Part shown: positions 1,854-24,450 of the stretch, one piece after another | How positions within the stretch are numbered: position 1 is the stretch's first letter | Layout of the letters: each line of letters begins with the position of its first letter | From: an uncultured Erysipelotrichaceae bacterium | Lineage (GTDB): Bacteria; Bacillota_I; Bacilli_A; RF39; UBA660 | Assembly: GCA_902779035.1 (NCBI GenBank) | Contig: CACZAH010000016.1 | Coordinates: 1 to 32,581, forward strand | Direction: 5' to 3' | DNA length: 32,581 nucleotides | The notes under the pieces: generated by a model | Database searches by the model: none | What the model was told of the DNA's origin: nothing | The model's input: only the letters and a program-made list of their open reading frames with translations | Program-made: the position numbers and the translations under genes

Positions 1854-4800
1854 TTAATCATCTTCTCCTTGTGCAAGAAGTTTCTTAATATCTTTTTCAC
1901 TAAGTGATGATAATACTTCTGAATCAGCTTTACCTTCAATTAGATTATCACTTAATATTTTCTTTTTATTTTGTAATTCTAAAATACGTTCTTCTACTGT
2001 ACCTTTAGTAACTAATTTAATAACTGTTACTTTATTTTTTTGACCTATTCTATGCGCTCTATCTGTAGCTTGATTCTCAACCTGTGGATTCCACCATATA
2101 TCTAAGTGTATTACTACATCCGCACTAGTTAGATTAAGTCCAGTACCACCAGAACCTAGTGTAATTAAGAAACAATTAGTATCATCTTCATTAAATTTAT
2201 CAACTAATTCCATTCTAGTTTTACTCTTAACATCTCCAGCAATCATATAACTAGTAATACTCTCTTTATTAAACATTACTTTTACTTTATCTATTACTTT
2301 TTTAAAACTTGAAAAGATTAATATCTTATGACCTTCAGCTACATAATCTTTAACTACTTCAATTAGTTTTTCAAACTTAATAGATTCCTTTTTATAATTA
2401 CTATATAGAATTGATGGATCAATACAAATCTGCCTTAATTTCATAAGTAATTGTAATATTTTAAATCTAGCTTTCTTAAATCCCTGTGTAGCAATTAACT
2501 CTTCCATCTCTTCTCTAGATTCACGAAGTACTTTTAAATATAATGCTTTTTGATAATCAGGTAAATCTAAGTATATAGTATTTTCTATCTTATCAGGTAA
2601 ATCCTTAGTTACATCTATCTTCTTTCTTCTTAATATAAATGGTTTTATCTGATAATTTAATTTAGAAAGTCTTTCTAGAGATGCTTCATCTACATCTTTA
2701 ATACCATATAACTCTCTAAACTTTTTAACACTATTTAAGTATCCTGGCATAATAAAGTCAAATATACTCCATAATTCCATAACCGAATTTTCAAGTGGTG
2801 TACCTGTTAGGGCAATCTTAGTTCTTGCTTTAATCTTCTTAATTTCCTTAGTCATACCAGCTTGATAATTCTTAATCTTTTGTGCCTCATCAATAATACA
2901 TAAGTCAAAAGTTTTATCTTCATATTCATCATTATCATTTCTAATTATTCCATATGATGTAATGAATATATTATATTTATCAAAATCATTAATAACTTCT
3001 AATCTTTTAACCTTATTATCGGCAACTGTTACATATTTTAACTCTTTACCAAACTTATCAAACTCTTTTTTCCAGTTATATACTAAAGCAGTAGGAACTA
3101 CTATCATTATTTTAGCATCCTTCTTCTCCTTTAGTAATAATTTAATAAACATGATAGTTTGAATACTTTTACCAAGTCCCATCTCATCAGCTAGTATTCC
3201 ACCTAAATCACATTTATAAAGTGTATATAACCATTTAACTCCATCTTTTTGATAATCACGAAGTATACTTTCATCTTTTTTACTAAGACTAATATCTACA
3301 TTTTTATACTCTTTAAAGTTATTAATAAATGTATCAAATGAATTATCAGTATTAATTGATTTATATTTATTACTCTTTAGTGAATCAATATAAAATGCTC
3401 GATACTTTGGTACTTCTACCTCACCTTCAGCAAGACTTCCACTAATAGATAAATCACTCATCAAATTATTTAGCTCATTTAACTCTTCATTATTCTCTAA
3501 ATCAATTACATTACCATTTTTTAATTTATAATACCTCTTATTACTTTTAAGTGATGATAGTACTTTATCAAGTTCATCTAAGTTAATATTATCAGCATCA
3601 AATGTATAAGACATAATACCAGATGCACCAATACTAAAGTTAGAATTAATATGACTATCTTTAATAATAGACGTATTATCTATTTTCTTAGATGTAAATA
3701 CTTTATATGTATCTGATAGTTCCATTATACCTTCTGCTAGGAAGTCATATACTAAATCAAAATCATCTAATACTATTTTTTTATTACCAATCTCAAAACC
3801 GTAACTTGCAAGTTTACTAATTACTTCTCCTTCATACTCTTCATCTCTTAAAATAGTATCATTAGTATCAAAGTAATCAATCTTAGTATCTTTATAATCT
3901 AACTTCATCTCACAAGTAATTTTATCTCTTTTAAGATCAAAGTATAGTTCACAATCCGGTTTTACCCCAACAACTATATCAGTTACATTATCAGTTAAAT
4001 TAATATTATTTCTAACCTGTTTTAATAAACCATTTTTAAATAACTCAACATCTTTTTTCTCAAATATAACTTCATCTAATCCATATCCTATATATTGCAT
4101 TAATATATTACGGTATTTTTCTGGTATGATGTATAGAATATGTTTATATGCAATATATTTAAATGAACGATTAAGTATTTTATATGAAGACAAATCTTCA
4201 ATACTTAAATGATATATATCATCAATAATATCTAGACTAAGTTCTGTAGGCATACCTTCAGCTATTCCTTTAATAATGCCTACGTCTTTAATAGTAAATT
4301 CTCTATTCTTTAATTTATCTAATAAAGCAGATAACTCTCTAGGACTTAAATACATAACTTCACTACTATAATATCCATTACTACCACGTACTGCTGATGT
4401 TAAAAAATCAAATAATTCTGAATCACTACTATTAAAATAATACTTATCACGATTATAAGTAAAAGACTTACCAAATACATATTCACCACCATTACGATAA
4501 GCATCAACAAAGTTTCTAAGCTTACTTTCTGTATTTAATACATAAGTCTTTTTTAATCCAACATGTAATTTATAATTTACATAATCCCCAAATACTAATT
4601 CTAATTCTAATTTCATTTCTTCTTTTATATTAGATTTAGTATTTTTTTTAGTATTCTCACTTTTAAAACTATTTAATACTAAATTAGATAGCGTCATAGG
4701 ATTAACTAACTTATGCTCTATATCATCACTATAATTATAAATAGCAGCTGCAATATGCTTACAAGTATGATGAGACTTATATTGTTCACAGTTACATTTA

Positions 4801-12171: not shown

Positions 12172-13074
12172 TTATAGTGCAGATTTTTTAATTGTTATAA
12201 CCGGACGGACGACTAAATCATAACTACCTACGTATAAAGCTAAAAGACTGCCACTACTATTCACACTCCAAACATTAGATGCCAAATCAAGATACTGACT
12301 ACCTGTCCAGTAGTGATAATCACTATTATATACCAAACTTGGTGTTGATGACGATGGATTATATGACTCCGATGTAGCAGATATATCTAAAACATATCCT
12401 AAGTTATCCTTTAATTCATCAAGTGTAATTAATCTTGATTCACTTGCTGCTGGCGCTTTAGATTGAGTCCAAGCATCAATAGATGCTTTTATAAATGAAG
12501 TTGAATATGTACTTGTTGTTCCATAACTCATTCCTCCATTACCATCTGTTGACGCTCCTGTCCCTGATGAATATGTTGTAACTTCTTCTGCACTTAGTGG
12601 TTCTGCTTTTAGTAGTGTTACAGAGTCTTCTGATGAACTAGAATCTTTAATTACATAATAATCAATATTATTATATGTAACTGTATCTCCTACTTCATAA
12701 GCAGTATATGTTGGAGCAATTTCTTCTTTTCCATAAGTATATTCAACACTTCTGCCATTAACTGTACATCCAGCTAAATATATAGATGAATCAGTATTTA
12801 TTTGTGTTGTAGAACATACTACTTCATTACCTGAGTATTCAATAGTTAACTGCGATACTTCTGTTGGAAATTTACCATTATCTAGTAAATACCCAGCTAT
12901 AGCTAGTTCAATACTTCTTCCATATGCATCAATACTACGTTTGTCTGCTGATATTCTAGTTTTCCTAATTATGGATATAACTAGAGGGGTTGCAATTAAA
13001 GCAATTATTGCCATAATTACTAATACTGCAATTAATTCTATAAGTGTAAAACCTTTTTTTCCATATTTCTTCAT
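12172..13074 (-). CDS. Type IV prepilin-like protein
   Basis: 300 residues. A short basic leader MKKYGKKG is cut after Gly8 by a prepilin peptidase. It is followed by the class III signal FTLIELIAVLVIMAIIALIATP, whose Glu5 is conserved. The rest is an extracellular Ser/Thr/Tyr-rich domain with two cysteines (CSTTQ and AGCTV) that may pair. The C-terminal block has NVWSVNSSGSLLALYVGSYDLVVRPVITI, the DUF6273-like module seen in many gut Firmicutes surface pilins. No pilus assembly genes lie nearby, so this is a stand-alone pilin or pseudopilin served in trans. A decayed paralogue is at 193-561. AAGGAGG precedes the ATG. Confidence 0.88.
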   Translation of the reverse strand: MKKYGKKGFTLIELIAVLVIMAIIALIATPLVISIIRKTRISADKRSIDAYGRSIELAIAGYLLDNGKFPTEVSQLTIEYSGNEVVCSTTQINTDSSIYLAGCTVNGRSVEYTYGKEEIAPTYTAYEVGDTVTYNNIDYYVIKDSSSSEDSVTLLKAEPLSAEEVTTYSSGTGASTDGNGGMSYGTTSTYSTSFIKASIDAWTQSKAPAASESRLITLDELKDNLGYVLDISATSESYNPSSSTPSLVYNSDYHYWTGSQYLDLASNVWSVNSSGSLLALYVGSYDLVVRPVITIKKSAL

Positions 13075-23952: not shown

Positions 23953-24435
23953 ATGAACAACACTTACTATAGAGAAATACCATCTAATAACTTTTTTTCA
24001 AACAATCAACCACCTAACCAACCCCCGTTTTCCATAAACAGAATGTACTATCAAGATAAGGATATAACAGTTTTAATGAATACTCCCCGGGTCAAGACCT
24101 CGATTGTCCTGATGGACAATCGACTCTCTTCGAGAGCGGGGTATCTATAATCTGCAGTTTAACAACTGCTCAGTTAGAAACATACACAGTATGTTCCTAA
24201 CTTATTAAATCTTAATAAAGGTAAGAAGGTATGCATTTATACATCATTTAAAAACTCTGAGGAATGGAAAAATAAAGCATTTACTGGCATTGTTGAAGAT
24301 GCATACAAAGATTATTTAGTATTAAGTGATCCTAAATGTGGAGATTGGTATATAATACCTATTAAGTATATAGATTTTATTAAATCAGAAGAAAATATAA
24401 ATATTAAACTTAATTATTATCAAACTAGCAACTAA
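23953..24435 (+). pseudogene. gerQ: Spore coat protein GerQ gene, interrupted by a structured element
   Basis: The ATG at 23953 opens an Asn/Pro/Tyr-rich N-terminus (MNNTYYREIPSNNFF, QPPNQPPFSINRMYY), as in GerQ proteins. Reading then enters a GC-richer insert and meets in-frame stops at 24148, 24160 and 24175. From about 24187 the same frame resumes with QYVPNLLNLNKGKKV, YTSFKNSEEWKNKAF, GIVEDAYKDYLVLSDP and WYIIPIKYIDFI, the conserved GerQ domain, ending at TAA 24433-24435. GerQ is a mother-cell inner-coat protein, cross-linked by transglutaminase and needed for the cortex lytic enzyme CwlJ. The second part has no usable start codon. It shows no further lesion, and the promoter is intact. 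It may be a fresh disruption or a gene needing excision, splicing or bypass. Calling it pseudogene is provisional. Confidence 0.7.
24085..24202 (+). other. Structured insert: four-way junction plus two hairpins
   Basis: Read as RNA, CCCCG (24085-24089) pairs with CGGGG (24137-24141) and encloses three arms. These are GGT/ACC (24090-24099), a 9-bp perfect arm CGATTGTCC/GGACAATCG (24101-24109, 24114-24122) and CTCTC/GAGAG (24124-24136). Only two junction bases remain unpaired. Two hairpins follow: GCAGTT/AACTGC (24154-24169) and AGTTAG-A-AACATAC / GTATGTT-C-CTAACT (24172-24202). The last arm reaches into the resumed gerQ frame. Base composition is much richer in GC than all surroundings. The edges are not defined by clear terminal repeats. 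I do not recognise it as a known RNA family. Confidence 0.7.
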
Positions 24436-24450
24436 TTTGTTGCTTTTTTT
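24427..24450 (+). terminator. gerQ terminator
   Basis: AGCAAC (24427-24432) and GTTGCT (24439-24444) around a 6-base loop, then seven T in all. The gerQ stop codon lies in the loop. Confidence 0.75.

Follow-up and report, generated by a model that had tools for sequence, protein, structure and literature searches.

An in-frame interruption of gerQ in an uncultured Erysipelotrichaceae bacterium, very probably due to a transposase-less IS200/IS605-type element

Within a 32,581-nucleotide stretch of DNA from an uncultured Erysipelotrichaceae bacterium (the window), the frame at 23953–24435 codes for GerQ (Spore_GerQ, PF09671), but is split in its middle by a strongly structured insert, with both halves in the same reading frame. 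The translation of the frame opens with MNNTYYREIP...ITVLM and, after the stops of the insert, continues with ...LNKGKKVCIYTSF...TSN. The split and the dependence of the C-terminal part on the upstream frame, both pointed out in a preliminary description of this DNA, were confirmed: in-frame stops are located at 24148 (TAA), 24160 (TAA) and 24175 (TAG), no in-frame ATG, GTG or TTG occurs between the last of these and the natural gerQ stop at 24433, and the frame is continuous up to that codon. The insert region folds at –53 kcal/mol versus –34 kcal/mol in shuffled sequences (z = –5.0; none of 200 shuffles as good). The promoter and terminator had been described as intact as well; a terminator-like hairpin was indeed predicted (Table 1), whereas promoter-like sites are no more frequent than chance would give (5 against 4.6 expected). 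The stops of the insert truncate the product at 65 codons, upstream of the conserved domain, so that the allele is most likely null and gerQ inactivated in the sequenced population, from which an effect on the cell may be inferred.

Comparison with gerQ of relatives had been proposed as a means of defining the insert edges. The gerQ genes of two other genomes (G002 and G004) are uninterrupted and lack the insert, and removal of 24076–24204 from the frame yields a GerQ protein of 117 aa, colinear with both, which is the predicted product of the gene before insertion. In tnpA orientation, the boundaries of the element are TTTAA/TAAG...TTCAT/, and joining the flanks at these positions reopens the frame in three host genes, namely gerQ, an open reading frame at 15.0–15.5 kb of contig C21, and a prepilin gene whose halves are located on contigs C2 and C22. 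Uninterrupted homologues of the latter two restored joins are encoded on contig C29 of genome G012 (82% over residues 1–89 of the C21 ORF) and on contig C6 of G003 (72% over residues 1–168 of the prepilin). All three restored frames are lost once the edge is displaced by 1 or 2 nt. Since the three genes are restored solely by the exact join, with zero duplicated bases, the gerQ insert corresponds to 24076–24204, without target duplication. DNA and RNA folding revealed near-terminal palindromes at both ends of the insert, the LE and RE hairpins; by inspection, the bases at its extremities (TAAGTTAG... and ...AGTATTCAT, tnpA orientation) do not constitute terminal inverted repeats. TTTAA is found 5' of LE (tnpA orientation) at every LE end listed for the own genome and G004; the background density of this motif in the window is about 0.0066 per strand position.

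Table 1. Parts of the interrupted gerQ locus and of its insert (positions in the window)
Feature	Position	Strand	Basis
gerQ 5' part (codons 1–41)	23953..24075	+	uninterrupted frame; joining to 24205 onward yields 117 aa, colinear with relatives
Non-autonomous IS200/IS605-type element (PATE/MITE), 129 bp	24076..24204	– (tnpA orientation antisense to gerQ)	own-genome copies, 97–100%; ends common to tnpA-bearing G004:C99; edges from three restored frames
RE palindrome complex: closing stem CCCCG/CGGGG and three hairpins	24085..24141		RNA and DNA folding; kept in all RE copies
Small internal hairpin GCAGTTTAACAACTGC	24154..24169		folding; missing from the C21:15239 copy
LE subterminal palindrome, AGTTAGGAACATAC TGT GTATGTTTCTAACT on the – strand	24172..24202		DNA fold –9.1 kcal/mol; five further own-genome copies, 97–100%
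Target pentanucleotide TTTAA (TTAAA on +), adjoining LE and belonging to gerQ	24205..24209	–	next to all LE ends listed for G000 and G004
gerQ 3' part, conserved Spore_GerQ domain	24205..24435	+	profile search, PF09671, E = 7.5e-17
Intrinsic terminator-like hairpin and T-run	24427..24444	+	terminator-like site prediction

Copies of the insert were collected by similarity search of the genome to which the window belongs (G000), a 90%-complete assembly of 1.19 Mb in 51 contigs. With 24060–24235 as query, the left portion was detected at six additional sites and the right portion at five (97–100% identity each), the copies being distributed over contigs C2, C5, C10, C18, C21, C22 and C31. This genome contains seven exact occurrences of the 16-mer AATGAATACTCCCCGG, while the reversed 16-mer, as control, gave one match at ≤3 mismatches; the short pattern CTTATTAAA is too common to be informative. 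The right ends by themselves give a count of at least seven near-identical insertions (97–100%), and copy lengths are 101–203 bp. Multiple copies of such similarity imply that the element has been mobile in the past. Contigs C2, C10, C22 and C31 end within the repeat, which is what short-read assembly of a multicopy element would be expected to produce. The longer copies, for example that at 24.6 kb of C21, comprise about 55 extra internal bases, suggesting that the gerQ copy is internally deleted; with several copies located at contig ends or containing an assembly gap (14 N in that at 24.6 kb of C21), neither this deletion nor the internal structure of individual copies is secure.

Genes interrupted besides gerQ are the prepilin gene, a GNAT acetyltransferase gene, the C21 ORF, which is of unknown family, and, in G004, a gene coding for a Rieske protein; the copies at C5 and at 24.6 kb of C21 appear to be intergenic. 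In gerQ, the tnpA strand of the element runs antisense to the host gene; in the prepilin gene and the C21 ORF, it runs in the sense direction. Contig C31 carries the 3' part of the GNAT gene; C10 and C18 were considered as sources of the matching 5' part and rejected due to disagreeing frames. A second copy on C2 (G000:C2:475) stops abruptly within the LE hairpin, between ACATACACA and AGGGATTT, indicating either a deletion that also took neighbouring DNA or a misjoin in the assembly. The copy on C5 (G000:C5:9872) is about 101 bp long and has lost almost the whole LE hairpin, perhaps via deletion between short AC repeats; it is probably immobile. Prepilin-like (N_methyl) paralogues are encoded at 12172–13074 of the window and at many places in G000, G002, G003 and G004, with 31 matches in the 1.19-Mb genome G000 and 46 in G003, a striking expansion for a small genome.

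On contig C99 of G004, a genome of the same genus, both element ends are present about 650 bp apart and flank a 147-aa reading frame that matches the Y1/HUH transposase family (Y1_Tnp, PF01797; E = 1.8e-24). On contig C36 of the same genome, an RE that is 97% identical to that of the window adjoins a C-terminal segment of TnpA. The repeat ends hence correspond to the two ends, LE and RE, of an insertion sequence of the IS200 type. The 90%-complete assembly of G000 yielded neither a Y1 transposase gene nor an autonomous copy; repeated insertion sequences are often missing from short-read assemblies. Scanning the genome collection for a 17-base RE sequence identified one related genome (uncultured Bacillales MAG SRR12081298_bin.74) as well as single matches in unrelated taxa, which are probably due to chance. 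A TnpA homologue in G030 (58%) has no matching element ends in its immediate flanks. A diverged LE-like copy (TTTTTAATAAGCTAGAAACATACACAGTATAATCC) occurs on contig C17 of G002 (near 3675) and on contig C3 of G004 (near 4123), adjoining a conserved, structured-looking stretch common to both; the stretch in G004 gave no Rfam match at gathering score.

We are confident that gerQ was interrupted by the recent insertion of a core-deleted, transposase-less element of the IS200/IS605 type (PATE/MITE). Of the options offered in the preliminary description, it is the recent small insertion that stands, the insert being a near-identical, multicopy element without a transposase gene. Most likely, TnpA supplied in trans would have recognised the element, in single-stranded form, by its subterminal hairpins and placed it 3' of TTTAA on the antisense strand of gerQ, with no duplication of the target. 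The gerQ frame resumes because transposition added DNA but removed none, and because the insert length of 129 bp is a multiple of three (3 × 43); the intact flanks are due to recency and to the seamless chemistry of the IS200/IS605 transposon family. Seamless reversion of gerQ might be possible in principle, but only if some TnpA excised the element. Against this explanation, the source of the transposition activity is not visible in an assembly that is 90% complete and lacks a Y1 transposase, and the putative mobility of the element is deduced from its copies rather than from observed transposition.

The rival that fares best, although very improbable, is excision from mother-cell DNA by TnpA during sporulation, which would restore gerQ in the manner of the sigK skin element. 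Precise removal would give back GerQ, single-stranded elements are excised by IS200/IS605 transposases (PMC6006769), and the presence of Spo0A and SpoIVA in the genome makes it probable that the host forms spores. However, a Y1 transposase is absent from the assembly, gerQ of relatives lacks the insert, and a restored frame is expected of any insertion without target duplication. The element moreover resides in the prepilin and GNAT genes, the ORF of unknown family, the Rieske gene of G004, and intergenic sites, indicating that it has no link to sporulation. A site-specific recombinase of its own, as in skin-type elements, is not encoded by the 129-bp insert, which contains no gene. Equally improbable is excision of the miniature element in the mother cell by a TnpA whose gene lies in the unassembled part of the genome or on a co-resident element; if it did occur, an IS200 remnant would act as developmental switch of a spore-coat gene.

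Slightly less probable still is removal at the RNA level, the insert being a self-splicing or novel ribozyme intron. The insert is strongly structured and sits within reading frames, reminiscent of the known IStrons, which consist of a group I intron and an insertion sequence (PMC4227781). In contrast, the Rfam search of the insert gave no match at gathering score and two irrelevant weak matches at E up to 10, none of them to a group I intron, a group II intron or another credible RNA family. Some copies run with and others against their host gene, and RNA-level removal could not work for both; further copies are intergenic, and the conserved parts are the transposon ends. With 129 bp, the insert is also smaller than known group I introns. 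An assembly artefact, that is, misjoined repeat copies in this metagenome-assembled genome, has even less in its favour: contigs C2, C10, C22 and C31 break in the repeat and C21 contains a gap of 14 N, but both flanks in the window stem from one gene and rejoin exactly, so that they are correctly paired and only the internal length may be wrong. Ribosome bypassing in the manner of T4 gene 60, for which the hairpins and the in-frame downstream segment might speak, is the least credible of all, as ribosomes would have to get past three stops and several hairpins within 129 nt, the hairpins are transposon ends found at unrelated loci, and the restored frame is accounted for by transposon boundaries common to other genes. 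RNA splicing, developmental excision and bypassing, all raised in the preliminary description, are unsupported.

What interrupts gerQ is a transposon insertion of an ordinary kind, rather than a device for splicing or developmental excision. While the broader importance of this insertion is limited, it provides a clean, well-bounded example of miniature elements derived from IS200 that have spread in a recent burst and broken genes in a small Bacilli genome, and illustrates that the resumed frame of an interrupted gene needs neither splicing nor developmental excision if the element leaves no target duplication.

IStrons (CdISt1 and others) resemble the window element in being of the IS605 type, in inserting 3' of a T-rich pentanucleotide, and in their location within reading frames. 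They need a group I intron alongside the IS605-type transposon (PMC4227781), whereas the window element has no group I ribozyme core, is inserted in both orientations rather than only in that of the host transcript, and shows no sign of splicing in its sequence. Insertion of IS200/IS605 elements takes place 3' of a defined tetra- or pentanucleotide and generates no duplications, with hairpins at both ends serving for recognition (PMC7290912; PMC6006769). Like the IS200-type members with their Y1 HUH transposase, the window element has hairpins at both ends and a pentanucleotide flanking LE, and its ends surround a PF01797 tnpA gene in the same-genus genome; unlike them, neither the window copy nor the assembled genome contains tnpA. 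Judged by these traits, it is a non-autonomous IS200/IS605-type element possessing all described features; its mobilisation in trans by TnpA is putative. PATEs are devoid of terminal inverted repeats and target duplications, have palindromes near their ends and are too short for a transposase gene, and some of them arose from IS605-type elements by core deletion (PMC3119063). The window element differs from the IS605-type PATEs of Haloquadratum in its bacterial host, in its target TTTAA, and in its IS200-like parent, which, in the copy seen on C99 of G004, has tnpA only. It shares with them the lack of target duplication, the near-terminal palindromes and an apparent core deletion of an IS200/IS605-type parent (PMC3119063); its 129 bp are too short for a transposase gene, and its ends are common to the autonomous Y1 element of about 650 bp in G004.
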